This document shows, piece after piece, positions 17,130-31,572 of a stretch of 64,000 nucleotides of DNA. The stretch is from Promicromonospora sukumoe. GTDB lineage: Bacteria > Actinomycetota > Actinomycetes > Actinomycetales > Cellulomonadaceae. Positions within the stretch are counted from its first letter, which is position 1. Each line of letters opens with the position of its first letter. The translations under genes were made by a program, and so were the position numbers. Where the stretch lies: NCBI RefSeq assembly GCF_014137995.1, contig NZ_JACGWV010000002.1:124001-188000 (forward strand), written 5' to 3'. The notes beneath the pieces are model-generated. The model searched no databases. It had not been told where the DNA came from and was given only the letters and a program-made list of their open reading frames with translations.

Positions 17130-18650
17130 TCAGCGAGCCGCGTACGTCGTCTCGTCCAGCCCCGACTGGGTCGGGTCGTGGTCCACCTCGCCGACGTCGT
17201 ACATCGTGGTCATCCAGTGGTAGAAGTTGTCGCCGCGGTCACGGAGCAGCCGGTAGAGCCGCCCCATCATGCGGCGCCGTACGCCGTCCAGGGCGGGGTC
17301 CGCGTACGCGTTGGTGAGCTCGTCCGGGTCGGTGTGCAGGTCGTAGAGCTCGTTGACGGAGTCCGGGTTGACCACCAGCTTGTACCGGTCCTCCCGCAGC
17401 ATCCGCTGCGGGTAGGGGAAGTGGTGCCCGTGGAACTCGCACACGATGTCCTGCTGCCACTCGACGTCGTCGCCCGCGGCCAGCGGCAGCAGGCTGCGGG
17501 AGTCGACGGCGGGCGCCGGGTCGATCCCGGCCAGCTCCAGGATCGTGGCCGTGCAGTCGAGCAGGCTCACGAACTCGGTGCGCACCTGCCCCGCCGGGCC
17601 GCCCGGGACCCGCAGCAGCCCGGGCGTGCGGTAGATGTCCTCGTACATCGCGGGGCCCTTGTCGTGCAGCCGGTGCGCGCCCGTGAACTCGCCGTGGTCG
17701 CACGTGAAGAACACCGCGGTGTCGTCCACGAGCCCCAGCCGCTCCAGCGCGTCCATGACCCGCCCGATCTGCTGGTCGATGAGCGTCACGTAGCCCCAGT
17801 AGACCGCGATGAGCTTGCGCGTCACCTCGATGGGCATGGTGTCGAACGTCCAGTGCGCGCTGTAGTTCGCCTGGACGGGCGGCTTGCCCTCGAAGGTCTC
17901 CGCGATGGAGGCGGGCAGCTCGACGTCGGCCGGGTCGAACAGGTCGAAGTACTCGTCCGGCACGATGTACGGCAGGTGCGGCCCGAAGAAGCTCAGTTCA
18001 AGGAAGAACGGCCGCTCCCCCGACCGGAAGTCGTCCGCATACCGCTCCAGCAGCTCGATTGTGCGGGTCGCCAGGTAGGCCTCGAACGTGGCCTCGACCG
18101 GCTGGTGCAGCCGGGCCGCGAGCAGGTTGCCCGGCCCGCCGTTGGGCAGCGTGCCGCGCACGCGGTCGCTGATCTCGTACGGCGGCAGGTCGCGTTCGGC
18201 CAGGTAGGCCAGGTAGTCCGGGTTGTCGACCGGGTTGTGCCAGCCGGGCAGGTCCGGCCCGTCGAACCCGAACGACGCCGCGTTCTTCTCCGTGCCGGCG
18301 TGCCACTTGCCCACCAGGCCGGTGTTGTACCCGTGCTCGCGCAGCGCCTCCACGAAGGTGAAGGTGCCCTCGGCCAGATCCTCCTGGTAGCCGACGTTGC
18401 GCTCGTGGTTGGCGAGCACCTGGTGCCGGAACGGCGCCTGGCCCGTGAGCAGGCTCGCGCGCGACGGCGTGCAGATCGCCGTCGGCGTGTACCAACGGTC
18501 GAACCGCGTGCCCGACGCCGCGAGCCCGTCCAGCACCGGCGTCGACGCCAGCGGGTTGCCGTAGGCGCCCAGGGTGTCGGCCCGGTGCTGGTCGGTCATC
18601 AGGAACAGGACGTTCTTCGCCCCCGCTGCGTCACCCACCGGGTCACTCAC
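17130..18650 (-). CDS. Type I sulfatase, cytoplasmic
   Basis: Hydrolyses sulfate esters. The 506-aa protein carries the formylglycine signature C60-T-P-S-R64 followed by ASLLTG, the metal motif MTDQHRADTLGAYGN at the N-terminus, GKWHAG, and a second metal cluster in FFTCDHGEFTGAH. There is no signal peptide, so the substrate must be imported first. GTG start at 18650 overlaps the stop of the substrate-binding protein gene by 8 nt: last gene of a five-gene operon with an ABC importer and a ROK regulator. Activation needs a formylglycine-generating enzyme, not found in this window. Confidence 0.93.
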   Translation of the reverse strand: MSDPVGDAAGAKNVLFLMTDQHRADTLGAYGNPLASTPVLDGLAASGTRFDRWYTPTAICTPSRASLLTGQAPFRHQVLANHERNVGYQEDLAEGTFTFVEALREHGYNTGLVGKWHAGTEKNAASFGFDGPDLPGWHNPVDNPDYLAYLAERDLPPYEISDRVRGTLPNGGPGNLLAARLHQPVEATFEAYLATRTIELLERYADDFRSGERPFFLELSFFGPHLPYIVPDEYFDLFDPADVELPASIAETFEGKPPVQANYSAHWTFDTMPIEVTRKLIAVYWGYVTLIDQQIGRVMDALERLGLVDDTAVFFTCDHGEFTGAHRLHDKGPAMYEDIYRTPGLLRVPGGPAGQVRTEFVSLLDCTATILELAGIDPAPAVDSRSLLPLAAGDDVEWQQDIVCEFHGHHFPYPQRMLREDRYKLVVNPDSVNELYDLHTDPDELTNAYADPALDGVRRRMMGRLYRLLRDRGDNFYHWMTTMYDVGEVDHDPTQSGLDETTYAAR

Positions 18651-19674
18651 CGGCCTTCACGAACTGGTCGCCCAGGTAGAACTCGGACGGGTCGACCGCC
18701 TCGGGGAGCTGGCCGGAGCCCACGAAGTAGTCCTGCATCCCGGTGAGCCAGGTGTCGGTGGTGCCGTCCTGCGTCAGGGTGTCGATCTCGTCGACGGAGA
18801 GGACGTCGACGTTGGCGGCGTCCGCCTCGACGTCGGCCGGGTCGAGGTCGTTGAAGTCGGCGGTGAGCGCGATCGCCTCGTCCATGTTCTCGGTGCGGTA
18901 CGCCATCGCCTCGCGCAGCACCTTCAGCACGGCGTCGACCTTCTCGGGGTCGTCGGCGACGACGTCGACCTTCTCGGGGTCGTCGGCGACGACGTCGTTC
19001 CCGGCCACGAACGCCGTGGGGAACGCGACGGTCTCCTCGAAGTCGCTGTTCTGGGCGAGCTCCACCAGGTCGGGCACCTGCTCCTTGACCGTCGCGAGCG
19101 CCGGGTACCAGAAGCCGGCGGCGTCGACCTGGCCCGAGGACAGCGCGGCGACGATGGCCGGCGGCTCCATGGGCACGAGCTCGACGTCGTCCTTGGTCAT
19201 GCCCGCCTCCTCCAGCGCGAGCGTGAGGATCATGTCGCCCGACGTGCCCTCCGGCACGGCGACCGTCTTGCCGGCCAGGTCCTCGACGGACTCGATGCCG
19301 GGCTGCGCGACCACGCGGTCGGCCCGCCCGAGGGTGTTCAGCGCGACGACCTTGGCCTGCCCGGAGGCGGGCAGCCAGAAGGCGCCGGGGCCGATGTACC
19401 CGAAGTCGAGGTCGCCCGTGCCGAGGGCCTGGATCTGCAGCGGCCCGTTGGTGAACGACGACGTCGTGGCGTCGATGCCGTGCTCCTCCCACAGCCCCTG
19501 GTCCTCGGCGATCGCCAGCAGGCTGGTGCCGTTGAAGTCGGGGATGTAGCCGAAGTTGACCTCGATCGTGCCGTCCTCGCCGCCGGCGCCGCCGCCCGAC
19601 GAGCAGGCGCCGAGCGAGAGCGCGAGGGCGAGGCCGGCCGCGGCAGCGGCGAGGGTTCTCCTGGAAGATCGCAT
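18643..19674 (-). CDS. ABC importer substrate-binding lipoprotein (SsuA/TauA type)
   Basis: A 343-aa lipoprotein with the lipobox LGAC (C24) after a classic signal. The mature part starts INFGYIPD-like (VNFGYIPDFNGTSLLAIAED) and has the NMT1/SsuA pattern, with GDLDFGYIGPGAF and DLAGKTVAVPEGTSGD. Family members bind sulfonates, nitrate, taurine or pyrimidine precursors. A 30-bp exact tandem duplication (18934-18963 and 18964-18993) repeats VVADDPEKVD twice on a surface region. It precedes the sulfatase and follows the ATPase in the same operon, so a sulfated or sulfonated ligand is the likely cargo. Confidence 0.9.
   Translation of the reverse strand: MRSSRRTLAAAAAGLALALSLGACSSGGGAGGEDGTIEVNFGYIPDFNGTSLLAIAEDQGLWEEHGIDATTSSFTNGPLQIQALGTGDLDFGYIGPGAFWLPASGQAKVVALNTLGRADRVVAQPGIESVEDLAGKTVAVPEGTSGDMILTLALEEAGMTKDDVELVPMEPPAIVAALSSGQVDAAGFWYPALATVKEQVPDLVELAQNSDFEETVAFPTAFVAGNDVVADDPEKVDVVADDPEKVDAVLKVLREAMAYRTENMDEAIALTADFNDLDPADVEADAANVDVLSVDEIDTLTQDGTTDTWLTGMQDYFVGSGQLPEAVDPSEFYLGDQFVKAGE
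18934..18993. repeat. Exact 30-bp tandem duplication in substrate-binding protein gene
   Basis: Two back-to-back identical 30-bp units (GTCGACCTTCTCGGGGTCGT first bases). In frame, adding ten residues VVADDPEKVD. Looks like recent replication slippage or an assembly artefact. Confidence 0.9.
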
Positions 19675-19684
19675 GGGGGTGTCC

Positions 19685-20518
19685 TCAGTTCTGTGTCTGG
19701 GTGGAGGTCTGGGTGTCTGTGGTCTGGTGGTACACGGCCCGCCACACCCGGTTGCGCAGCTCCGCGAACTCCGGGCTGAGCCGCACCTCCTCGGTGCGCG
19801 GGTAGGGCAGGTCGACGTCGATCACCTCGTGGATGCGGCCCGGCCGGGCGGCCATGACCACCACGCGGCCGGCGAGGAACACCGCCTCGTCGACGTCGTG
19901 CGTGATGAACAGGACGGTGCGCTTCTCGGTGCTCCAGGTGTCCAGGAGCTGCTCCTGGAGCCGCACGCGCGTCAGGGCGTCGAGCGCCCCGAAGGGCTCG
20001 TCCATCAGCAGGATCGACGGGTTGACGGCGTAGGCGCGGGCGATGGCGCACCGCTGCTTCATGCCGCCGGACAGCGTCTTGGGCAGGGCGTCCGCGAACT
20101 GCTCCAGGCCCACCAGGCGCACGTAGTGCTCGGCGCGCTCGCGCCGCTCGGCGGCGGGCAGGCCCGCGACCTTGAGCCCGAACTCGACGTTCTTGCGCAC
20201 GGTCAGCCACGGGAACAGCGCGTACTGCTGGAAGATGACGCCGCGCTCGGGGCCGGGCCCGGTCACGCCGGCGCCGTCGACCAGCACCTGGCCCGACGTC
20301 GGCGCCTCCAGCCCGGCGACGATGTTCATCAGGGTGGACTTGCCGCAGCCGGACGGGCCGACGACGGTCACGAACTCGTTGTCGGCGACGTCGAGGTTCA
20401 CGCCGTCGAGGGCGACGAACTCCTCGTCCTTGAGGGCGAAGGTCTTGCGGGTGTCCCGCACGGAGATCTTGGCGGCGCCCGTCGTCGTGCGCGGGGCGTC
20501 CTGCGTGCTGGTGGTCAT
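19685..20518 (-). CDS. ABC transporter ATP-binding protein (SsuB/TauB type)
   Basis: A 277-aa ATPase with Walker [20 protein letters not shown]-loop [12 protein letters not shown], signature [15 protein letters not shown], Walker [15 protein letters not shown] and the H-loop FITHDVDEA. The short sulfonate/nitrate-type ATPase drives import with the neighbouring permease and binding protein. ATG at 20518 overlaps the permease stop by 4 nt (ATGA). A Thr/Gln-rich tail ends the protein. Confidence 0.95.
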
Positions 20519-21327
20519 CGTCGCTCCTGCCATCCGGTCAGCCGGGTCTCCGCGAGCAGCAGCAGCCGGTCCATCACCAGGCCGAGCACGCCGATCGCGA
20601 CGATGGAGACGAAGATCGTCGCGAGGTCGTAGTAGGTCTGGGCCTGCTGCATGCGGAACCCGAGGCCCGCCTGCGCGGCGAGCAGCTCCGCGGCCACGAG
20701 GGTGGCCCATGCGGAGCCGAGGCCCACGCGCATGCCGACGAGGATGAACGGCGAGGACGCCGGCACCACGACGCGCAGGAAGATCGTGCCGTCCTTGGCC
20801 CCGAGCACGCGGGCCGCGTTGATGAGCGTCCGGTCCACGCTGACGACGCCCTGGTACGTGGAGATCACGCAGGCCAGGAACGCGGCGAGGAAGATGACGA
20901 ACACCTTGGGCAACTCGCCGATGCCCATCAGCACCAGCACGAGCGGCAGCAGGGCCAGCGGCGGGATGGTGCGGAAGAACTGGATCCACGGCTCGAACAG
21001 GCCGCGGGCCGGTACGTACCAGCCCATCAGGAAGCCGACCGGGACGGCCGCGGCCGAGCCGAGCAGGAACCCGGCCAGCACCCGGCCGAGGCTGGCGAGC
21101 AGGTCCTCGCCCAGGGTGCCGCTGACCGTCAGGTCCACGGCCTTGGCGAGCACCTCGGGCGGCGTCGGGAGCTGGAGGCCGCTGAGGGCCAGCACCCACC
21201 AGATGCCGATGCCCGCCACGATCGAGACGGCGTTCAGGGTCAGCAGCGTGGTGCGTCTGCCCGCCCGGCGGCGGGGCGGTGACCCGTTACGCGCTGGGGT
21301 CGGGGTCGACACGGTCGACGTGGTCAC
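20515..21327 (-). CDS. ABC transporter permease (SsuC/TauC type)
   Basis: A 270-aa inner-membrane permease with about six transmembrane segments and the EAA-type cytoplasmic loop [20 protein letters not shown] followed by [19 protein letters not shown]. The GTG start at 21327 overlaps the stop of the ROK regulator gene (GTGA), so translation is coupled. It works with the ATPase and lipoprotein encoded downstream. Confidence 0.93.
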
Positions 21328-22604
21328 AGGGCTCTCCTCAGGCGTGCGTGCAGTGCGGGCATCGGGGTGCGCAGGGTTCCGCGCAGGTCGGCGTCGCCGT
21401 CGGCGGCCTCGGGCTGGGGGTAGCCGGCCAGCAGCGGGGACAGGTGGAAGGCGGCGGCGAGCGCGCCGAGCGCGCCGTCGGTGTCGCGCAGGCGGCCGGC
21501 GCGCACGACGAGCGGCTCGTCGGTGGGCAGCGGGTGCAGCTCGTAGCGCAGCGTGGCGGCCGCCTGCTCGACGATCACGGGGGCGACGTGCACGATCTCG
21601 CCGCCGATCACGATCTCGTCGGGGTCCAGGGTCAGCGCCGCGGTGCTGAGCACCCGGCCCACGGCCGCGCCGACGTCGCGCAGCACCGCCTCGACCACGG
21701 GGTCGCTGGTGGCGACGACGGCGGCGAGGTCATCGAGCGTGGTGACCTCGACGCCCCGGGCGCGGCAGGCCGCGAGCACGGCCGGCGCGGAGGCGACGGT
21801 CTCCAGGCAGCCGCGCTTGCCGCAGCGGCACCGGCTCCCGGCCGGGTCGACGTTGATGTGGCCCAGCTCGCCCGCGAACCCGTGCGCCCCGGTGCCGATC
21901 CGCCCGCAGACGACGAGGCCGCCGCCCACGCCGTCCGACAGCCGCACGTACAGGAGGTCGGTCGCGCCCTCGGGCTGGGAGACCGCCTCCGCGAGCGCCG
22001 CGAGGCGCGTGTTGTTGTCGACGACGACGGGCGCGCCGAACCGCTCGGCGAACGCGCCGTGCACGTCGTGCGGGGCGGAGCGGCGGGCCCACGAGACCTG
22101 CTTGCTGTCGACGCGCCACCCGCCGTAGGGGCCGACGACGCCGATGCCGACAGCCTGGAGCTCGCCGAAGTGCAGGCCGTGCTCGCGGGCGAGCCGGTCC
22201 ACCAGCCGGAAGGCGAGGTCGAGGCGGCGGGGCCACGGGGTGTCGTCGTCGTAGTGCTCGACGCCGGAGGCGACGGTCTCGCGGGCGGCGTCGGCGACGG
22301 CGGCCCGGACGCGGCGGTGCCCGAAGTCGACGCCCAGGTACTGGCCGGAGCCGGGGTCGAGCGCGAGGCGCTCGGCGGGCCGGCCGCTGCCGCGGCGGGT
22401 GGCGGCGTCGGTGTCGACCACGACGACGGCGCCGCGGCGCAGCAGCTCGGCCGTGGTCTCGGACAGGGTGGTGCGGGACAGGCCCACGCGGCGGGCGAGC
22501 TCGGCGCGGCTCAGGGGGCCGTCGCGGAGCGCGGCCAGCACACGGCTCTCGTGGGCGCGGCGTGCGGCGCTGCCAGTTGTCGTCGTCGACATGCTCGTGA
22601 CCAT
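21324..22604 (-). CDS. ROK-family transcriptional regulator
   Basis: A 426-aa ROK repressor. The N-terminal winged helix (about 15-65) includes [20 protein letters not shown], and the sugar-kinase-like domain follows, with [20 protein letters not shown]. The zinc cluster residues C259, C261 and C266 and the sugar-contact E246 and H249 are present. ROK regulators respond to sugars or sugar phosphates. It is the first gene of the operon and precedes an importer and a sulfatase. A box just upstream of its ATG recurs in front of the neighbouring GH43 gene, so it probably controls both and itself. An in-frame ATG at 22592 is an alternative start. Confidence 0.92.
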
Positions 22605-22612
22605 AAGGACCC

Positions 22613-22660
22613 CCGAATTTTTCCGTCAACGACCCGGCAGAAAACACGACCAATTCCGTC
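22613..22660 (-). promoter_or_regulatory. ROK box, copy at the ROK operon
   Basis: CCGTCAACGACCCGGCAGAAAA at 22623-22644 matches CCGGCAAGTACCCGACAGAAAA at 25331-25352 in 18 of 22 positions with no gap; flanking TTTT and AATTC words are conserved too. Both copies end about 20 bp upstream of a start codon. On the coding strand the core reads TTTTCTGYCGGGT. Probable operator of the ROK protein. Confidence 0.65.
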
Positions 22661-22687
22661 GGATTCAACCAGAACTCTCGCTCGACG

Positions 22688-22781
22688 CTGGTCGAGCTTG
22701 TCGAGACCCCCGTCCGCCGGTCGAGACACCCATCCGCTGGTCGAGCTTGTCGAGACCCGGGTCTCGACAAGCTCGACCGGC
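22688..22781. repeat. GGTCGAG-family repeat, tandem plus hairpin
   Basis: One direct unit at 22688-22708, a half unit near 22719-22729, then a hairpin at 22736-22781 built from GGTCGAGCTTGTCGAGACC and its inverted copy around CG. It follows the GH43 stop (22791) on the minus strand and could end that transcript ahead of the ROK promoter. Confidence 0.85.
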
Positions 22782-22790
22782 GATGATGAG

Positions 22791-25310
22791 TCAGGGGAGG
22801 GCGTACGTGCGGACGTAGTCGAACGTGGCCGTCGCGCCCGCCGTGTTCATCGCGACCAGGCCGGTGCGCAGGGGCTGGTCGTCGGGCAGGGTCCAGACGC
22901 CGCCCCACCGCCACGTCTCGCCGTCGGTGCTGGACGCCATGCGCACCTCGTACTCCGCGTTCGCCGCGTCCCGGTGCACGGCGAGCCGCAGCCACGTGGT
23001 CTCCCCCGGCGCCGGGCCGAACATCGGGGCGCTGTACGCGGCCGACGGCGGGGTGCTGGTCGTCCGGGCCGCCTCCTTGGTGAACTCCACCGTCTGCGCA
23101 GCGCTGCCGGGCTTGCGCAGCAGGCCGAGCTGGGAGTGCACCAGCTTCACGAACTGATCGTCGTCCGCGTAGAGCACGAGCCCGGCCTGCCGGTTCACGC
23201 CCACGCCGTCGAGAGTCAGCTTCGTCTCGACCAGGTAGTCGCCGGTGGGGGCGTCGCGGGTCAGCACCGAGGCGGTGTTGGTGCCCTGGTACAGCTCCGC
23301 GTTCTGGGTGGGCCAGGTCAGTGCGCCGTCGTCCAGGCGGACGCCGGCAGCGGGGCCGCGCACCCAGGTCCAGCCGGTGTTGGCTGCGCCGGTGGTTTCC
23401 GCGCCGGCGCCGTCCGCGCCGGTCCTGGCCGCGCCGGTGCCGGGCACGACGTCGCCGTCGAACTCGTCCGAGTGCTCCGGCAGCAGCGCGCCCGGCTGCG
23501 GGTCGGGCACGCGCTCGGTCACGGGACGCGCGGCGGGCACGAGGCTCACGTTGTCGGCGGCGGCCGCGCCCCGCGCGGTGACGCCCACCGGCACGCGGCC
23601 GGCGGCCCCGCGCACCGTGAGGCCGACGCTGCCGAGCGGCTCCTTGAGGTTGTCGGCCGACACGGTGGCCGTGTACGCGCCCGAGCGCGCCTCCCGGTCG
23701 AGGGTCACGACGTTCCAGTCCCCGTACGGGAAGTTGTCCGGCAGCGGCGTCGCCGCCCGCTGCGCCCTGGGCCCGCGACCCGTCTCCAGACGCAGCTCGC
23801 CGGCGGCCCGGTCCACCCAGGCGGTCACGCGCCCGGCGCCCGTGCCGAGCGCGAGTCCCGCGGCGCCGTCGTCGTCCGCGACGCGCAGGTCAGCCTGGGC
23901 GCGCAGGTCACCGCCAGCGCGGTCCCGGCTGGTCAGGGTCGCCCCGTCGAGGGCGGCGTACGGCCCGGTGTCCGGTTCCTGCCCGACGACGACGTCGCCG
24001 CCGGCCCGCCAGCCGGCCAGGGAGCCGTCCGCGAAGGTGCTGCTCACGGGGCCGCTCGTCACCGGCGCCCGCTGCGGGCCCGACGACGGTCCGGCGCCCG
24101 CGTTGACGACCGGCCAGCCGTCGATCCAGTCGAGGCGGTCGATCATCAACGGACGCTTGGACAGGTTCAGCACGCCGTTGCGGGTGTCCACGGGCGGGAA
24201 GTCGGGGTCCGCCTCCGGGATCGCGTGGTATGCCATCCAGTCCTGACCCGCCAGATCGGTGATCAGCGAGTGGTGCCCCGGTCCGGCGTAACCGTCGCCG
24301 TTCGACGTCAGCACGTAGCCGCCCTTGCTCGACTCGGCCATGAGGTCGGTGCCGTCGTCGTCCACGAAGGGGCCGACCGGGCTGTCGCTGCGCCCCACCT
24401 TGACGGTGTAGCCGCTGAACGCGCCCTCGCAGCAGCCCGCGTCGGAGTACATCAGGTAGTAGAGGTCGTCGTGCCGCACCACGTACGCGCCCTCGGCACG
24501 CCGCCCCTGTGCCACCTGGGTCACGGGTCCGGTGAGCTCGCCCGCGCCGGGCGTCAGCTCCGAGACGCAGAGCACGTCGTAGCTGCCCCAGTACAGGTAG
24601 AGGGTGCCGTCGTCGTCGGTGAAGAGCGCCTGGTCGATGTTGCCGGTGGGGCAGCCGTCGATCGGCGCCGACGGCACCAGCAGTTCGTCGCCGTGGGTCC
24701 ACGGGCCGGTCGGCGTCGGCGCGGTGGCCACGGCGAGGCCGCCCGTGGAGAGCCCGTAGGTGAGCAGGTACTCGCCGTCGACGTAGCGGATGTCGGGCGC
24801 CCAGGCACGCGAGTTGTCGCGCCACGTGGCGGGGACGTCGTCGGACTGGATCACCTCGCCCGCGTACTCCCAGGTCACGAGGTCCGTGGAGCGCAGGATC
24901 GGCAGGATGCGCTCCCCCGGCTCGCCCTGGCTGTTGAACACCGGGTTCTGCGTGCCGTACGCGTACCAGGCGCCGTCCTTGCCGCGGATGACGGCGGGGT
25001 CGGGAAAGGTGTCGGTCACCCCGGCGGAGACGGGGTTGGTGTAGGTGGCGGGCGTGGCGTCGGACGGCAGCCCGGCCGACGTCGGCGGTACGGCAGCAGT
25101 CGGCCGTGCGACGGACGTCGCGACGTCGGCGGCGTCGGACGTCGCGACTGCGACACCGGCGGCGGCGTCAGCGACGGTGCCGACGTCGGCGTCGGCAACC
25201 GCCGGCACGACAGGGCCGAGGCCCCCGGCCAGCACGGCCGCGGCGCACGCCGCGACCCAGGCGGTGCGGACAGGTCTCCGTTGATCTGATCCAAGGCGCA
25301 TGCCGCCCAT
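22791..25310 (-). CDS. Secreted glycoside hydrolase family 43 protein
   Basis: An 839-aa exported enzyme, probably an arabinanase, arabinofuranosidase or xylosidase. Signal peptide at about 1-41 (ending VPAVADA). The five-bladed GH43 core has the three acids in order: base D104 in TFPDPAVI, helper D226 in GNIDQALF, and acid E273 in RRAEGAYV, with the usual AWAPDIRYVDGEYLLTYG. A middle jelly-roll-like region (about 460-610) and a C-terminal laminin-G/DUF1349-type domain (QAGLVLYADDDQFVKLVHSQ) follow; both could bind carbohydrate. Start at 25310 or 25301. Its promoter shares a box with the ROK operon. Confidence 0.9.
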   Translation of the reverse strand: MGGMRLGSDQRRPVRTAWVAACAAAVLAGGLGPVVPAVADADVGTVADAAAGVAVATSDAADVATSVARPTAAVPPTSAGLPSDATPATYTNPVSAGVTDTFPDPAVIRGKDGAWYAYGTQNPVFNSQGEPGERILPILRSTDLVTWEYAGEVIQSDDVPATWRDNSRAWAPDIRYVDGEYLLTYGLSTGGLAVATAPTPTGPWTHGDELLVPSAPIDGCPTGNIDQALFTDDDGTLYLYWGSYDVLCVSELTPGAGELTGPVTQVAQGRRAEGAYVVRHDDLYYLMYSDAGCCEGAFSGYTVKVGRSDSPVGPFVDDDGTDLMAESSKGGYVLTSNGDGYAGPGHHSLITDLAGQDWMAYHAIPEADPDFPPVDTRNGVLNLSKRPLMIDRLDWIDGWPVVNAGAGPSSGPQRAPVTSGPVSSTFADGSLAGWRAGGDVVVGQEPDTGPYAALDGATLTSRDRAGGDLRAQADLRVADDDGAAGLALGTGAGRVTAWVDRAAGELRLETGRGPRAQRAATPLPDNFPYGDWNVVTLDREARSGAYTATVSADNLKEPLGSVGLTVRGAAGRVPVGVTARGAAAADNVSLVPAARPVTERVPDPQPGALLPEHSDEFDGDVVPGTGAARTGADGAGAETTGAANTGWTWVRGPAAGVRLDDGALTWPTQNAELYQGTNTASVLTRDAPTGDYLVETKLTLDGVGVNRQAGLVLYADDDQFVKLVHSQLGLLRKPGSAAQTVEFTKEAARTTSTPPSAAYSAPMFGPAPGETTWLRLAVHRDAANAEYEVRMASSTDGETWRWGGVWTLPDDQPLRTGLVAMNTAGATATFDYVRTYALP

Positions 25311-25317
25311 CGAACGG

Positions 25318-25370
25318 TGCCCGATTTTCTCCGGCAAGTACCCGACAGAAAAAGTAGGGAATTCTGCCGA
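25318..25370 (-). promoter_or_regulatory. ROK box, copy at the GH43 gene
   Basis: CCGGCAAGTACCCGACAGAAAA at 25331-25352 is the partner of the box in front of the ROK gene, and the similarity runs for about 50 bp including TTTTCTGTCGGGT and GAATTC on the coding strand. Position relative to the start codon is almost the same as at the ROK gene. This links the secreted GH43 to the sulfatase/importer operon. Confidence 0.65.
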
Positions 25371-25667: not shown

Positions 25668-25732
25668 TTGGTCTACCCAGCGATTGGGCCCGAAACCGAC
25701 GTGGTTTCGGGCCCAATCACTGGGTAGACCAA
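25668..25732 (-). terminator. 30-bp-arm hairpin after the polyol ABC operon
   Basis: Arms at 25668-25697 and 25703-25732 (TTGGTCTACCCAG start, GGGCCCGAAACC end) match with one mismatch in 30, with a 5-nt loop. It lies 15 bp past the stop of the last permease gene. The arm is far longer than a terminator needs. Confidence 0.75.
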
Positions 25733-25746
25733 CCCCTTACTTGCCC

Positions 25747-26583
25747 CTACTTGATCGCACCCATCGACAGCCCGCGCACGAGCTGCTTCTGCGCCACCCA
25801 GCCCGCGATGATCACGGGCAGCGACGCCAGCAGCGCCGCCGCGCACAGCCGGGCCAGGAACAGGCCCTCGCTCGTCATGGTCGACACGATGAGCACCGGC
25901 ACCGTCGCCGCCCGGGAGGCGGTGAGGTTCAGGGCGAAGAAGAACTCGTTCCACGAGAAGATCACGCAGATCAGCGCCGTGGCGGCGATGCCGGGGGCCA
26001 CCATCGGGATGAGCACGGACCGCAGGGTCCGCATCAGCCCGGCGCCGTCGACGGACGCCGCCTCCAGCACCTCCCCCGGCACCTCCAGGAAGAACGACCG
26101 CATCATCCACACCGCGATCGGCAGGTTCATCGCCGTGTACAGGACCACCAGGGTCCAGATGTTGTCGAGCACCTTGAGCTGCCCGGCCACCACGTAGATC
26201 GGCACGATGACGGCCACGACGGGCAGCATCTTGGTGGAGATGAAGAAGAACAGCACGTCGCTGACCTTCTCCACGGGCCGGATCGACAGCGCGTACGCCG
26301 CCGGGATGCCCAGCAGCAGCACGAGCACGGTCGAGACGCCGGTCGCGATGGCGGAGTTCGCCACGTACACGCCGGACCCGCCCTCGATCACGGCGCGGAA
26401 CTGGTCGAGCGTGGGCGTGAAGAACCACGTGGGCGGGTCGGACGCCGCCTGGTTCTCCTGCTTGAACGCGGTGGCCGCCATCCAGGCGACCGGGAAGAAG
26501 AAGGCGAGCGCCAGCAGCCAGGTCAGCGTGGTCAGCACACCACCCGTGGCTCGACGGCGGTACGCCCGGGTCACGTCGGACAT
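25747..26583 (-). CDS. Sugar/polyol ABC permease (MalG-like)
   Basis: A 278-aa permease with six predicted transmembrane segments and the EAA loop EVLEAASVDGAGLMRTLRSV followed by LIPMVAPGIAA, typical of CUT1 importers. Starts at 26583, 2 bp after the stop of the partner permease. Similar to sorbitol/mannitol permeases in having a long periplasmic loop after helix 1 (TWFFTPTLDQFRAVIEGG). No ATPase gene follows; in actinobacteria such systems often share one MsiK-type ATPase encoded elsewhere. Confidence 0.92.
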   Translation of the reverse strand: MSDVTRAYRRRATGGVLTTLTWLLALAFFFPVAWMAATAFKQENQAASDPPTWFFTPTLDQFRAVIEGGSGVYVANSAIATGVSTVLVLLLGIPAAYALSIRPVEKVSDVLFFFISTKMLPVVAVIVPIYVVAGQLKVLDNIWTLVVLYTAMNLPIAVWMMRSFFLEVPGEVLEAASVDGAGLMRTLRSVLIPMVAPGIAATALICVIFSWNEFFFALNLTASRAATVPVLIVSTMTSEGLFLARLCAAALLASLPVIIAGWVAQKQLVRGLSMGAIK

Positions 26584-26585
26584 GC

Positions 26586-27533
26586 TCACTCCTTGACCTC
26601 GAAGCTGCGGAAGATGAGGCGCAGCGCGGCGGAGGCCACGATGATCGTGGCGATCACGACGACGACGCCCATGGCGGCGGCCTGCCCGATGTCGAACCCG
26701 AGGAACGCGCGCTGGTAGATGTAGAACGGCAGGTTGGCGCTGGCCGTACCGGGCCCGCCCGCCGTCATGAGGTAGATCTGGTCGAACGTGTTGACCACAT
26801 AGATGACGCCGAGCAGCACGCCCAGCTCGATGTACCGACGCAGGTGCGGCAGCGTGATCGAGCGGAAGACCCGCCACGGGCCGGCGCCGTCGACCGACGC
26901 GGCCTCCAGCACGTCCTTCGCCTGGGCCTGGAGCCCGGCGAGCACCAGCAGCATCATGAACGGCGTCCACTGCCAGACCAGCGCCATCAGGATCGCGATG
27001 ATCGGGTAGGTCGACGTCCAGTCGACCGCCTCGATGCCGAACACGCCGAGCACCCAGTTGAACAGGCCGTACGTGGGGTTGAGCAGCGCGACGGACCACA
27101 GCACCGACGTCGCCACCGGCATCACCAGGAACGGCGTGATGAGCATGGTGCGGGCCACGCCCCGGCCGAAGAACGGCCGGTCCAGCAGCAGCGCCAGCAC
27201 GATGCCGAGCACCATCGCCACGAGCACGCAGCCCAGCGTGATGACCACCGAGTTCAGCGCGGTCTGCCGGAACGTCGAGTCCTGGGCGATGTCGATGTAG
27301 TTCGACAGGCCCACGAAGATGTCCTCGCCGGGCCGCAGCAGGTTCTGCCCGCGCAGCGAGTACCAGATCGTCACGAGGAACGGGAGCTGCGTGACGATGA
27401 CGGTGAAGATCAGGGCCGGCAGGAGCGGGCCGCGGCGGCGCCACCCCTCGGCCTTGCTGATGGACCGCTCCGCCGCCGAGGCGCGGGCCGCCCGGCGCGA
27501 GCTCTCCAGCCGGTCGATGGTCGAGGTGCTCAT
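26586..27533 (-). CDS. Sugar/polyol ABC permease (MalF-like)
   Basis: A 315-aa permease with a cytoplasmic basic N-terminus, six transmembrane segments and the EAA loop DVLEAASVDGAGPWRVFRSI. The LTAGGPGTAS-like motif (LMTAGGPGTASANLPFYIYQ) near the C-terminus is standard for CUT1 MalF subunits. ATG at 27533 overlaps the binding-protein stop by 4 nt. Forms the membrane channel with the downstream permease. Confidence 0.93.
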   Translation of the reverse strand: MSTSTIDRLESSRRAARASAAERSISKAEGWRRRGPLLPALIFTVIVTQLPFLVTIWYSLRGQNLLRPGEDIFVGLSNYIDIAQDSTFRQTALNSVVITLGCVLVAMVLGIVLALLLDRPFFGRGVARTMLITPFLVMPVATSVLWSVALLNPTYGLFNWVLGVFGIEAVDWTSTYPIIAILMALVWQWTPFMMLLVLAGLQAQAKDVLEAASVDGAGPWRVFRSITLPHLRRYIELGVLLGVIYVVNTFDQIYLMTAGGPGTASANLPFYIYQRAFLGFDIGQAAAMGVVVVIATIIVASAALRLIFRSFEVKE

Positions 27534-28906
27534 TTCCCCTCCTGGGCCCGGTAGGTCTCCGCCACGGTCTCGGCGTAGCGCTGCGACTGTGCGATGGCCT
27601 CGTCCACGGTGACCTGTCCGGCGATCGCCGCGGACATCTGCTGGCCCACGCGGGTGCCGAGGTCCTGGAACTCCGGGATGCCCACGAACTGGATGCCCGG
27701 GTAGGGCACCGGGTGGGTCATCGCGGCCTCCTGCGTGGCCCCGTTCATCGACTCCAGGGTCGCGTCGGCGTAGGCCTCGGACACCTCGGCGTACTCGGGG
27801 ATCTCGTAGGTGGACAGCCGGCTGCCCGGGGGCACCCGCTCCCAGCCGATCTCCTCGCCGACGGTCTTGATGTACTCCTTGTTCGTCATCCAGGACACGA
27901 AGTCCCAGGCGGCGTCCTTGTGCTCGCTCGTGGACGGGATGGCGAGGGACCAGCTGTAGAGCCAGCCCGCCGACTCGGTGTCCGCGACCGGCGCGGGCGC
28001 GTAGCCGACCTTGCCCGCCACGGTGGAGGACGCAGGGTCCTCGATGGACGAGACCATCGACGTCGCGTCGTACCACATGGCCGACTGACCCTGGGCGAAC
28101 CGGGTGAGGCAGTCGCCGAACCCGGACGTCGCGGCGCCGGGCTGGCCGGAGGTCTGCACGGTGTCGATGTAGGTCTCGATGGCCTCACGGCTCTCGGGCG
28201 AGTCGAGGGTGGCGTTCCAGTCCTCGTCGAACCAGCCGCCGCCGAACGTGTTGATCGCGGTGCTCATCGGCGCCATGACCTCGCCCCAGCCGGCCAGGCC
28301 GCGCAGGCAGATGCCCGAGAAGTCCTCGGCGGGCTCGTTCAGCTCCGCGGCCAGCTCCCGCACCTCGTCCCAGGTCGGGTTGGCGGGCATGTCCAGCCCC
28401 GCCTGCTCGAACAGGTCGGCGCGGTACGCCAGGAACGACGACTCGCCGTAGAACGGCACCGAGTACATGTCGCCGTCGCGCGAGAGGGCCTCGCGGACGC
28501 TGGGGACGAAGTCCTCGGCGTCGTAGCCCTCCGTCTCGTCGATGTACGGCTGCAGGTTCTCGATCCAGCCGTTCTCGGCCCACATCGGCGTCTCGTAGTT
28601 GGAGATCATGACGACGTCGAACTCACCGCCGCCGGTCGCCACGGACGCCGTGATCTTGGCGCGGGCCTCGTTCTCGGGCAGCGACACGAAGCGCACGTCG
28701 ACGCCCGGGTGCGCGGCACGGAACTCGTCCTGCAACGAGATCGCGTCCTGCATCTGCGGGTTGGAGACGATCGCGACCACGATCTGCTCGCCGTCGTCCC
28801 CGCCCACGGCTCCCGCCCCGGCACAGCCGGACAGGGCCAGCGCGGTGGCCGCCGTCGCGGCGGCCGCCGCCCATCTCACCGAGTTACCCCTCGGAGGTCG
28901 GAACAT
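27530..28906 (-). CDS. Sugar/polyol ABC substrate-binding lipoprotein
   Basis: A 458-aa type 1 solute-binding lipoprotein. Lipobox ALSGC (C28). The mature domain follows the CUT1 pattern: IVVAIVSNPQMQDAISLQDE, FDVVMISNYETPMWAENGWI, PFYGESSFLAYRADLFEQAG and AAWDFVSWMTNKEYI. Close in style to sorbitol/mannitol-binding proteins (SmoE-like). First gene of the transport operon, with SorC-type boxes directly upstream and the SorC regulator divergent. Confidence 0.92.
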   Translation of the reverse strand: MFRPPRGNSVRWAAAAATAATALALSGCAGAGAVGGDDGEQIVVAIVSNPQMQDAISLQDEFRAAHPGVDVRFVSLPENEARAKITASVATGGGEFDVVMISNYETPMWAENGWIENLQPYIDETEGYDAEDFVPSVREALSRDGDMYSVPFYGESSFLAYRADLFEQAGLDMPANPTWDEVRELAAELNEPAEDFSGICLRGLAGWGEVMAPMSTAINTFGGGWFDEDWNATLDSPESREAIETYIDTVQTSGQPGAATSGFGDCLTRFAQGQSAMWYDATSMVSSIEDPASSTVAGKVGYAPAPVADTESAGWLYSWSLAIPSTSEHKDAAWDFVSWMTNKEYIKTVGEEIGWERVPPGSRLSTYEIPEYAEVSEAYADATLESMNGATQEAAMTHPVPYPGIQFVGIPEFQDLGTRVGQQMSAAIAGQVTVDEAIAQSQRYAETVAETYRAQEGK

Positions 28907-28939
28907 CCTCGTCCTCTCCTCGGCGCAGCCTCTCCGCCG

Positions 28940-29006
28940 CGCTCATCTGAGAATCTTTAACTGCTCATCTGCATCCGCAGACTAGTTCGGTATGCTCAGG
29001 TGAGCA
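28940..29006. promoter_or_regulatory. SorC-regulator boxes in divergent importer/regulator promoter
   Basis: GCTCATCTG at 28941-28949 (with C before it), TGCTCATCTG at 28962-28971 and the palindrome TGCTCAGGTGAGCA at 28993-29006. The first two start 22 bp apart, two helical turns. The same half site occurs in inverted orientation, also 22 bp apart, upstream of the mannitol-dehydrogenase gene at 31621-31652. Probable operators of the SorC-type protein. Confidence 0.75.
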
Positions 29007-29068
29007 AGGCCCCCACTCAGAAGTCGCTCAAATGGTTCCCGCCACCACTCGCGGGAGTGAGGACGAAG

Positions 29069-30001
29069 GTGACCCCGAACGACACGAACCTCATGGTCGA
29101 GGTGAGTACCGACTACTACCTCGACGGCAAGTCGAAGGTCGAGATCGCCCGTGACCGCGGCATCTCCCGTTTCCAGGTGGCCCGGCTGCTCGCGCAGGCC
29201 CGGGAGCAGGGCGTGGTGCGCATCGAGATCAACGCGCCCGGGGTCGACGGCGAGCGCGGCGCGCGCCTGGCCGCCCGCCTCGGCGCGCGTGAGATCCTCG
29301 TCGCGCCCAGCGGCCCGGACCCGGCCGCCACGCGCGAGAACGTCGCCGTCGCGCTCGCGCGCACCGCCCGGGAGCAGATCACCGAGGGCATGACCGTCGG
29401 GGTGTCCTGGTCGCGCACGGTCGAGGCCGCGGTGCGGCACATCGGGCAGCTCCCCGAGTGCGACGTCGTGCAGCTCGTCGGCGCCCTGCCCGTCGAGGGC
29501 AGCGGCAACTCCCTGGCGCTCATAAGCACGTTCGCGCAGATGCCGGGCGTGCGCACCTGGCCCGTCTGGTCCCCGCTCCTGGTGGCCGACGCCGCGACCG
29601 CCGCGGGCATGCGCCGCCAGCCCGAGATCGCCGACGCCCTCGCGCGGGCCGACCACCTCGACGTCGCCGTCGTCGCGATCGGCAACTGGTCCGAGCGCAC
29701 CTCCACGGTGTTCCCGCAGATCAGCGTCGAGGAGCAGCAGGCGGCCACGGCCGCGGGCGCGGTCGCCGAGTGCTCGGGCCGCCTGTTCGACGCCGCGGGC
29801 AGGCCCGTCCGCACCAGCCTCGACGAGCGCGTGGTGGGCGTGACACTCGAACAGCTCACCGGCACGCCCCGCGTCATCGCGATCGGCTACGGGTCCGCCG
29901 TCGCGCCCGGCCTGCTGGCCGCGGTGAACGGCGGCGTCGCCGACACCCTGGTGGTCGACGACGCCGCCGCGGCGGCGCTGGAGATCATCGCCCCGAGCTA
30001 G
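29069..30001 (+). CDS. SorC/DeoR-type sugar-binding transcriptional regulator
   Basis: A 310-aa regulator. The helix-turn-helix KVEIARDRGISRFQVARLLA lies near the N-terminus and the SorC sugar-binding domain (sugar-isomerase-like fold) fills the rest, with VGVSWSRTVEAAVRHIGQLP and VIAIGYGSAVAPGLLAAVNG. GTG at 29069 is chosen, with GAGG upstream; a GTG at 29000 would lie inside the palindrome TGCTCAGGTGAGCA and is less likely. Such proteins bind phosphorylated sugars or polyols. Its boxes lie before the importer and before the dehydrogenase, so it likely controls both. Confidence 0.88.
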   Translation: MTPNDTNLMVEVSTDYYLDGKSKVEIARDRGISRFQVARLLAQAREQGVVRIEINAPGVDGERGARLAARLGAREILVAPSGPDPAATRENVAVALARTAREQITEGMTVGVSWSRTVEAAVRHIGQLPECDVVQLVGALPVEGSGNSLALISTFAQMPGVRTWPVWSPLLVADAATAAGMRRQPEIADALARADHLDVAVVAIGNWSERTSTVFPQISVEEQQAATAAGAVAECSGRLFDAAGRPVRTSLDERVVGVTLEQLTGTPRVIAIGYGSAVAPGLLAAVNGGVADTLVVDDAAAAALEIIAPS

Positions 30002-30019
30002 CCCCGAGCTGACCGACGC

Positions 30020-30067
30020 CGCTGGTCGAGCTCGTCGAGACCCGGGTCTCGACAAGCTCGACCAGCG
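30020..30067. terminator. GGTCGAG-family hairpin between convergent genes
   Basis: GGTCGAGCTCGTCGAGACCC and its inverted copy meet at CCCGGG with almost no loop, framed by CGCTGGT / ACCAGCG. It lies between the stops of the SorC gene (30001) and the dehydrogenase (30076) and could terminate both. One of four repeat-family loci here. Confidence 0.75.
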
Positions 30068-30075
30068 ACAGCGAG

Positions 30076-31572
30076 TCAGCCCCGGGCGACCAGGTCCTCG
30101 ACCGTGGCGCGGGCGCCCTGCTCGTGCAGGGCGTCCAGCGCCGCGGTGTAGGCGGCGGTGAAGCGCTCGTCGTCGACCAGGTCGCCGAACACCTCGCGGT
30201 CCCGCAGGAACGCCAGCGGGTCCTCCGCCTGCGCGAGGGCGGCGCGGTGCAGGCGGTCGGCGAGCCGGTCCACGATCTCGATGGGCTCGCCGGCCTCGTC
30301 CGTGCCCTCGTCGTACCGGGCCCAGGAGGCCACGACGAGCGCCGCGTGCTCGATCGGCCCGCCCGTGGCCAGGTGGTGCCGCACCACGGGCAGCAGCCAC
30401 TTGGGGATGCGGTCGGACGACTCGGCGCACAGCCGCGCCAGGGTGTCTGCCACGTGCGGGTTCGCGAACCGCTCGATCAGCGTGGCCTTGTACTGGTCCA
30501 GGTCGATGCCGGGCACCGGCTCCAGCGTGGGCGTGCCCTCGCGGTCCATGTACCCGCGCAGGAACCGGGCGTACACGTCCTGCCCGGCGACCTCGTGCGC
30601 GTACCGGTGACCGGCCAGGTAGCCCACGTAGCACAGGGCCTGGTGGCTGGCGTTGAGCAGGCGGAGCTTCATCAGCTCGTAGGGCTCGACGTCGGGCACC
30701 ACCTGCACGCCGGCGTCCTCGAACGGCGGCCGCCCCGTCGGGAAGGTGTCCTCCAGGGCCCACTGCTCGAACGGCTCGGCCACGACGGGCCAGGCGTCGT
30801 CGACGCCGAACCGCTCGGCCACCAGGGCACGGTCGGCGTCGGTGGTCACCGGCGTGATGCGGTCCACCATGGAGCTCGGGAACGCGACCTCGGTCTCGAT
30901 CCACGCCGCCAGGTCGGCGTCCTTCGCGCGGGCGAACGTGGTGAAGGCGCGGCGCGCGACCTCGCCGTTGCCCTGGATGTTGTCGCAGCTCATCACGGTG
31001 AACGGCGGCACGCCACGCTCCCGCCGTCGGCGCAGGGCCTCGGTGACCAGGCCGAACGTCGTCGCGGGGACGGCGCCGTCGGCCAGGTCCGCGGCGACCG
31101 CCGGGTCCGCCAGGTCGAACTCGCCGGTCACGTGGTGGATGTTGTAGCCGCCCTCGGTGACCGTGAGGGAGACGATGCGGACCTCGGGCGAGGCCATCTT
31201 CTCCAGCACGGCCTCCGGGTCGTCGGGGGCGAGCAGGTACTCCTTGATCGACCCGATGACGCGCGCCTCCAGGCGCCCGTCCGGGTGCTTGAGCACCAGC
31301 GTGTAGAGGCCGTCCTGGGCGGCCAGCGCGTCGCGCATACGGGCGTCGCCCGGCAGCACGCCGACGCCGCAGACCGCCCAGTCGAGCGCCTTGCCCTCGG
31401 CCATCAGCCGGTCCAGGTACATCGCCTGGTGCGCGCGGTGGAAGCCGCCCACCCCGAGATGCACGATCCCGGTGGTGAGCCGGTCGCGGTCATAGGTGGG
31501 CACCGTCAGGTCTGCGCCGTCCGGCGCGGACGCCACCAGGCTGCCCACGGTCTCCTCGTCGAGTGCCGTCAT
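30076..31572 (-). CDS. Mannitol dehydrogenase family protein
   Basis: A 498-aa long-chain polyol dehydrogenase/uronate reductase family enzyme, oxidising a polyol such as mannitol, sorbitol or arabitol to the ketose with NAD. The Rossmann start GIVHLGVGGFHRAHQAMYLD is near residue 35, the MSCDNIQGNG motif is in the middle, and the catalytic Lys-Asn-His signature is KLRLLNASHQALCYVGYLAG. Its upstream region carries two boxes identical to those of the adjacent ABC importer, so uptake and first oxidation are probably induced together. Confidence 0.93.
   Translation of the reverse strand: MTALDEETVGSLVASAPDGADLTVPTYDRDRLTTGIVHLGVGGFHRAHQAMYLDRLMAEGKALDWAVCGVGVLPGDARMRDALAAQDGLYTLVLKHPDGRLEARVIGSIKEYLLAPDDPEAVLEKMASPEVRIVSLTVTEGGYNIHHVTGEFDLADPAVAADLADGAVPATTFGLVTEALRRRRERGVPPFTVMSCDNIQGNGEVARRAFTTFARAKDADLAAWIETEVAFPSSMVDRITPVTTDADRALVAERFGVDDAWPVVAEPFEQWALEDTFPTGRPPFEDAGVQVVPDVEPYELMKLRLLNASHQALCYVGYLAGHRYAHEVAGQDVYARFLRGYMDREGTPTLEPVPGIDLDQYKATLIERFANPHVADTLARLCAESSDRIPKWLLPVVRHHLATGGPIEHAALVVASWARYDEGTDEAGEPIEIVDRLADRLHRAALAQAEDPLAFLRDREVFGDLVDDERFTAAYTAALDALHEQGARATVEDLVARG

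Follow-up and report, generated by a model that had tools for sequence, protein, structure and literature searches.

A conserved 26-bp inverted repeat as candidate operator linking a ROK-sulfatase-importer operon with a GH43 gene in Promicromonospora sukumoe

In a stretch of 64,000 nucleotides from the genome of Promicromonospora sukumoe (hereafter the window; NCBI RefSeq assembly GCF_014137995.1, contig NZ_JACGWV010000002.1, positions 124,001 to 188,000 of the forward strand), closely similar sequences precede two genes on the minus strand. One encodes a ROK-family regulator that heads an operon with an importer and a sulfatase, the other a GH43-type glycosidase. Does this shared box reflect common control, and if so, by which protein? 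An earlier note, made from the sequence alone, had proposed that the ROK protein governs both promoters as one local regulon, joining extracellular glycan cleavage to uptake and desulfation. Conservation of the box, a survey of sulfatase loci and a matrix built from ROK promoters alone support such a regulon. We consider it likely that the box is the operator of the adjacent, autoregulated ROK repressor, which would govern secreted glycan cleavage, import and cytoplasmic desulfation.

The similarity was noticed as two 22-mers, located at 22623-22644 (ROK side) and 25331-25352 (GH43 side), and a recount confirmed that they are identical at 18 of 22 positions. The wider similarity, put at about 50 bp in the earlier note, is real but extends over some 40 bp, with 30 of 40 positions identical (9, 7, 8 and 6 per 10-bp block, compared with 1-6 per block outside). 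On both strands of the window, only these two places lie within 5 mismatches of the ROK copy. When 60 sequences of 64 kb were simulated (first-order Markov, both strands), none held a place with 4 mismatches or fewer; the best, at 5 mismatches, occurred in 5 of the 60. Both copies form a 26-bp inverted repeat on the minus strand, with the symmetric pattern TTTTCYGYC-N8-GRCRGAAAA:

22619..22644, minus strand: predicted ROK operator in the ROK promoter, TTTTCTGCC-N8-GACGGAAAA, arms complementary at 7 of 9 positions; full reading from 22644 to 22619, TTTTCTGCC-GGGTCGTT-GACGGAAAA
25327..25352, minus strand: predicted ROK operator in the GH43 promoter, TTTTCTGTC-N8-GCCGGAGAA, arms complementary at 6 of 9 positions; full reading from 25352 to 25327, TTTTCTGTC-GGGTACTT-GCCGGAGAA

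Allowing up to 3 mismatches, the symmetric pattern was found at four places in the 6.5-Mb genome: the ROK site (0 mismatches), the GH43 site (2) and two others (3 each). Because the latter two match the level of the reversed-pattern control (3 places at the same threshold), the P. sukumoe genome has two box sites above chance. An earlier form of the pattern, also with up to 3 mismatches, gave both sites and one further place at 3 mismatches, with a single place for its reversal.

The box was then followed through a set of 99 related genomes, one of which is the window's own. Matches to the ROK protein at E<=1e-60 occur in seven of these, again counting its own, and a GH43 ortholog adjoins the ROK gene in six; the exception, G035, has no GH43 match at E<=1e-100. 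The earlier note had looked to conservation of the box at orthologous promoters, and the box is indeed present at both promoters in all five relatives that keep both genes: four of the same genus (G010, G009, G008 and G002) and one of another (G054), whose ROK protein is 50% identical to that of the window. In all five the GH43-side box lies in the same position, and across the two genera the two copies stay alike while their flanks differ. In G035, the box before the ROK gene reads TTCTGAC-N8-GACAGAA. The 3-mismatch pattern matches 10 of the 99 genomes. Two sites each occur in the six that have both genes, and one 3-mismatch site each in G024, G038, G039 and G065. The reversed pattern likewise matches 4 of 99, so that relatives lacking the ROK gene are only at control level; above-control sites in relatives are found only where this ROK gene occurs. 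In G009 (L041 and L048), the GH43 and ROK genes are broken up and intermixed with the CUT1 operon; this region contains undetermined bases and is probably misassembled or rearranged.

A wider survey drew on a sulfatase profile with 288 confirmed matches in named genomes. The best 80 of these 288 served as loci, and all GH43 counts from the named genomes rest on loci chosen in this way for sulfatase. The complete set of ROK, permease, ATPase, binding protein and sulfatase genes occurs on one strand in 76 of the 80 loci, with ROK and sulfatase only in two and sulfatase only in a further two. The genera include Promicromonospora, Isoptericola, Agromyces, Microbacterium, Nocardioides, Glycomyces, Streptomyces, Kribbella, Nonomuraea and Saccharopolyspora, among others. 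A box (no more than 80 bp upstream and matching the symmetric pattern with 4 mismatches or fewer) precedes ROK in 78 of 78 ROK loci, represented by 54 distinct sequences. Choosing the best match favours this count, yet the distance from site to ROK match is 51-59 bp in most cases, and the lowest score is 20.1 bits. Across the 54 sites, the arms are complementary at a mean of 6.19 of 9 positions; of 2000 column permutations, 15 do as well. Correlation between the arms is highest at the exact centre (0.47).

A matrix was built from the ROK sites alone and run over 1.61 Mb at a threshold of 12 bits, giving 135 hits compared with 0 in reversed sequences. It recovered GH43-type genes as well as ROK genes: 83 hits lie upstream of ROK, 28 of GH43b (a second GH43-type protein, PF04616 at 1.3e-16), 17 of GH43 and one each of sulfatase and a gene for a GH-A-like protein described below, so that 130 of the 135 precede a gene of the cluster. 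The 83 ROK hits include some second upstream repeats and reverse readings of a divergent box. Of the five remaining hits, one belongs to a ROK fragment (L048), two are ROK boxes in backward reading (L078, L098), one precedes a metabolite/H+ symporter gene (L098) and one, at L095, has no assignment. Counted by gene, 17 of 23 GH43, 28 of 49 GH43b and 1 of 8 GH-A-like genes are boxed, and 45 of the 61 loci that contain GH43 or GH43b have at least one of them boxed. The window itself holds no third site by this matrix, the next best place scoring -1.1 bits versus 43.4 and 26.1. The neighbours at 25748-31572 (a CUT1 importer, a mannitol-dehydrogenase-like gene and a SorC-family regulator) were therefore rejected as regulon members. 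In a 396-genome sample of the phylum, with the top four candidates per genome scored, the ROK protein was found at E<=1e-85 in this genome only, which speaks for a patchy system and nothing further.

The position of the box within the promoters suggests how it might act. Both predicted -35 elements fall inside it:

22600..22629, minus strand: predicted ROK-operon promoter, -35 TTGACG (22629-22624, within the box), 18-bp spacer, -10 TATGGT (22605-22600)
25309..25337, minus strand: predicted GH43 promoter, -35 TTGCCG (25337-25332, within the box), 17-bp spacer, -10-like TTCGAT (25314-25309, a weak match)

Over 52 non-redundant loci the consensus is TTGACG (in the right arm)-N17-TAnnnT, followed some 7 nt later by ATG, and both window promoters have the same arrangement, with 7 nt between the -10 hexamer and ATG 22592 (ROK) or 25301 (GH43). 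Conservation drops sharply upstream of the left arm, which itself lies upstream of the -35 and is as conserved as the right. Upstream of the main box, part of the loci carry a weaker second repeat, which in L055 lies at a distance of 33 bp. The earlier note's figure of about 20 bp from box to start codon holds for the 22-mers and the first in-frame ATGs (22604 for ROK, 25310 for GH43). Translation probably begins downstream of these, at the leaderless ATGs 22592 and 25301, because the latter are the ones kept in relatives; they lie 26 bp (ROK) and 25 bp (GH43) from the full 26-bp box, and ATG 22604 sits inside the predicted -10 of the ROK promoter. A protein bound to the box would cover the -35 element, as expected of a repressor.

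The genes brought together by the two promoters are as follows:

21324..22592, minus strand: ROK regulator, 422 residues, PF00480 at 161.4 bits (cut-off 22.9), conserved ATG 22592-22590, probably leaderless
20515..21327, minus strand: permease of an ATP-binding cassette (ABC) importer, Ssu/taurine/nitrate type, PF00528; the NCBIfam models that match best, SaoP and TauC, stay below their cut-offs
19685..20510, minus strand: ABC ATPase, start not settled, an open frame with GPSGCGKST and orthologs in relatives
18643..19674, minus strand: SsuA-family binding protein, either a lipoprotein or secreted, TIGR01728 at 215.2 bits (cut-off 163.5) and PF09084 at 66.5 (cut-off 20.5)
17130..18650, minus strand: sulfatase, PF00884 at 179.4 bits (cut-off 25), formylglycine motif CTPSR, no visible leader peptide
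22791..25301, minus strand: GH43 enzyme, 836 residues, PF04616 at 169.8 bits (cut-off 32.2; profile 1-288 of 288) and PF17851, conserved ATG 25301-25299

The sulfatase/importer operon of the earlier note stands as a set of five genes, with the importer corrected to the Ssu/taurine/nitrate type; the SsuA-family protein most resembles proteins that bind taurine, sulfonates and nitrate. ROK proteins carry a zinc-site and sugar-pocket motif, GE[L/x]GH...CxCGxxGCLE. This motif is present in the window protein and, in its strict form, in 70 of 77 orthologs, the other seven having variants or (L063) a broken frame. The recognition helix GLSRTT[LVI]S is found in 72 of 77. Helix-turn-helix models match the N-terminus at residues 14-70; of five listed, those passing their cut-offs are PF12802 (27.1 versus 27) and PF13412 (22.9 versus 21.9). 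Judged by these features, the window protein is a canonical ROK-family regulator.

Sulfatases of the formylglycine (S1) type carry the motif CxPxR. The window sulfatase is probably cytoplasmic, since no leader peptide is visible, and an iota-carrageenan sulfatase (5.7e-53) is its closest relative with a solved structure. This genome has three matches to the FGE family PF03781 over the cut-off, one of them partial, and a sulfatase-modifying enzyme is next in both loci checked (L105 and L063). More than one sulfatase match lies on the cluster strand in 30 of the 80 loci. The GH43 enzyme has an apparent signal peptide (judged by eye); its nearest solved structures are arabinanases (1.3e-19), and its relatives are named in databases as family 43 glycosylhydrolase, beta-xylosidase or arabinanase. 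Solved structures, homologue names and a fold prediction of the GH-A-like protein were consulted for the substrate, and none pins the glycan.

Several smaller features were observed in and between these genes. The SsuA-like gene contains an in-frame 30-bp tandem duplication (18929-18997), making the protein about 10 residues longer than its G010 match. Palindromic GGTCGAGCTTGTCGAGACC repeats lie at 22686-22782 between GH43 and ROK, and G010 and G002 have similar ones there. A hairpin at 25668-25732, in the gap separating GH43 from the CUT1 permease (30-bp arms, 97% complementary, 5-bp loop), is probably a terminator; a similar hairpin occurs at the same place in G010 and G009, with some letters changed on both arms.

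Taken as a mechanism, the preferred reading is as follows. A ROK dimer would bind the 26-bp inverted repeat and cover the -35 element, repressing two promoters: the one that drives its own operon of ROK, permease, ATPase, binding protein and sulfatase genes, and the one in front of the gene for the secreted GH43 enzyme. Once inside the cell, a sugar from a sulfated glycan, or its desulfated product, would bind the ROK domain and lift repression. The GH43 enzyme would trim the glycan outside the cell, the Ssu-type importer would take in small sulfated pieces, and the cytoplasmic sulfatase would release sugar and sulfate. What the sequences themselves establish is the repeat, its overlap with a predicted -35, its conservation and its occurrence together with this ROK gene. 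Binding by ROK, repression as opposed to activation, the effector, the glycan and the imported compound are what we infer here; that the box marks a small conserved gene set for sulfated-sugar use is very probable.

The proposed operator agrees with what is known of the family; statements drawn from the papers cited here rest on excerpts of them. Published ROK sites have a T-rich 5' arm, a GC-rich core and an A-rich 3' arm (PMC2580772), and this box has the same layout within an inverted repeat. As in Mlc, NagC, XylR, CsnR and RokB, a ROK domain with an N-terminal helix-turn-helix is paired with a T-rich/A-rich inverted repeat (PMC2580772, PMC4856308). Local control of a glycoside hydrolase recalls CsnR of Streptomyces (PMC4856308). 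The motif TTTTCYGYC-N8-GRCRGAAAA nevertheless differs from the sites quoted for CsnR and RokB, and the targets, a sulfatase and an Ssu-type importer, differ from those of classical ROK repressors. A related arrangement is a pneumococcal island of ROK, cellobiose-type phosphotransferase system (PTS), sulfatase and sulfatase-modifying factor, which likewise places a ROK gene beside a sugar importer and a sulfatase; deletion of that ROK gene raises sulfatase and PTS transcripts (PMC3283741). It differs in having a PTS rather than an ABC importer and in belonging to another phylum, and the word 'operator' is absent from PMC3283741. The excerpts of PMC5583593 hold nothing on ROK, and no account of this regulon turned up in the open-access library that was searched.

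The strongest rival accepts the same regulator and box but makes the regulon one of sulfur scavenging, in which ROK would respond to sulfate or a different sulfur metabolite and might be an activator. It concerns the signal and sign of control, not the regulon itself. The binding protein does exceed the SsuA-family cut-off (TIGR01728), and in Corynebacterium glutamicum SsuR and CysR are ROK-type regulators tied to the use of sulfonates and sulfate; either sulfate or O-acetyl-serine/homoserine controls them, and their genes are leaderless (PMC2580772). What they share with the present case is an actinobacterial host, a ROK-type regulator of genes for sulfur uptake and a leaderless regulator gene. 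For a ROK protein encoded next to a choline sulfatase in Rhodococcus, an 18- to 33-fold rise is seen on dibenzothiophene relative to sulfate (PMC8557817). By published description, however, SsuR and CysR are set apart as activators (CysR being dual) with sulfur-related effectors, another motif and another arm spacing, and their regulon as told in the excerpts of PMC2580772 includes no glycoside hydrolase. The same source terms CysR a distant family member at best, whereas the window protein is a full PF00480 match. An activator would be expected to bind upstream of the promoter core; the main box lies over the -35, as for a repressor, and the weaker second repeat is found upstream in part of the loci. 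Secreted GH43-type enzymes recur under the box. We therefore regard sulfur-responsive control as rather unlikely.

That another regulator binds the box is quite improbable. One boxed sulfatase, in L056, does occur in a genome without a ROK ortholog, but ROK is the sole regulator kept beside the box in 78 of the 80 named loci, and in relatives above-control sites keep company with this ROK gene. A very small probability goes to two similar core promoters, or a copied promoter, with no shared regulation: the -35 element does lie within the box and the second copy could stem from duplication, yet the left arm is conserved as well as the right, the copies remain alike over two genera despite differing flanks, and the genome has just the two sites. 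A leader peptide or RNA element can be dismissed almost entirely, for although both copies read FSxGxLxEK in one frame and this peptide likeness is real, the base differences between them are largely non-synonymous, predicted transcripts begin downstream of the box, and Rfam gave two microRNA matches (E 0.2 and 0.46), both scoring far under the gathering level and lying away from the boxes.

Several observations weigh against regulation of these genes by the ROK repressor through a sugar signal. At threshold, 6 of 23 GH43 and 21 of 49 GH43b genes have no box; some of these follow another cluster gene on the same strand, and others have their own promoter with no site. At 13 to 32 bits, the Streptomyces GH43b sites are weaker variants. 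The Glycomyces arizonensis sulfatase (L056 9938-9963) is boxed, with no ROK gene beside it and no ROK ortholog in the genome examined (best 32% identity); this box may be a leftover promoter after deletion, or the case may reflect an assembly gap. The diverged box of G035 was missed by the 3-mismatch pattern. Across the 99 genomes there are four chance places, and two of them reach 20.3 and 20.1 bits, as high as some counted sites. The importer class suggests sulfur compounds as much as sugars.

Variants of the box and its genes were seen elsewhere. The Streptomyces GH43b promoters (L069-L099, for example L074 5844-5869, minus strand) carry the variant TATTCGTCC-N8-GACGTAAAT, and other low-scoring variants occur in Kribbella and Nonomuraea; they may be operators that are weaker or tuned differently. 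Kribbella turkmenica (L092) has neither the box nor a ROK protein above 32% identity. GH43 paralogs (42-47% identity) lack a site in 17 of 18 loci (L017-L031, L034 and L035; best score below 0), this genome's own second copy (L029) included. At the 18th, L033 (67-3741; G089, from another family of the order), a distant ROK gene lies just upstream in one apparent operon, and TTCTGTC-N8-GACAGAA (score 15.9) precedes the ROK-GH43 pair, followed by TTCCGTC-N7-GACGCAA. This locus suggests that the ROK-GH43 switch is older than the present cluster. A second Isoptericola cucumis copy (L098 7063-8556) has ROK and sulfatase without the ABC importer, and a box before a divergent metabolite/H+ symporter gene; the symporter may replace the importer. 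The GH-A-like protein is a secreted protein of about 400 residues (L105 16557-17804, minus strand; relatives in L067, L078, L091, L092, L101, L102 and L107). No Pfam, NCBIfam or PDB sequence match was found for it. It has invariant GNEPF and TEF stretches, and a fold was predicted for it (mean pLDDT 69), for which TIM-barrel glycosidases, PslG among them, are the best but weak matches (TM ~0.42). It possibly represents an unclassified clan GH-A family tied to the cluster.

More tentatively, the ROK regulon could belong to an actinobacterial system for sulfated glycans that has yet to be described. Small sulfated sugars might be freed by secreted enzymes of the GH43 and clan-GH-A-like types, and an Ssu/taurine-class ABC importer (a metabolite/H+ symporter in one Isoptericola locus) would import them with the sulfate retained; cytoplasmic sulfatases would then desulfate them, and the ROK repressor would read the sugar or sulfated sugar via 26-bp operators, some of them in tandem. 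The cluster links uncharacterised actinobacterial sulfatases, a sulfonate-class importer, two GH43 types and a Pfam-less glycosidase-like protein in one testable unit with a defined operator. Its regulator offers a direct route to the substrate, as the compound that releases ROK from the operator tells what the cluster is for, and it would show whether Ssu-type importers can carry sulfated sugars.

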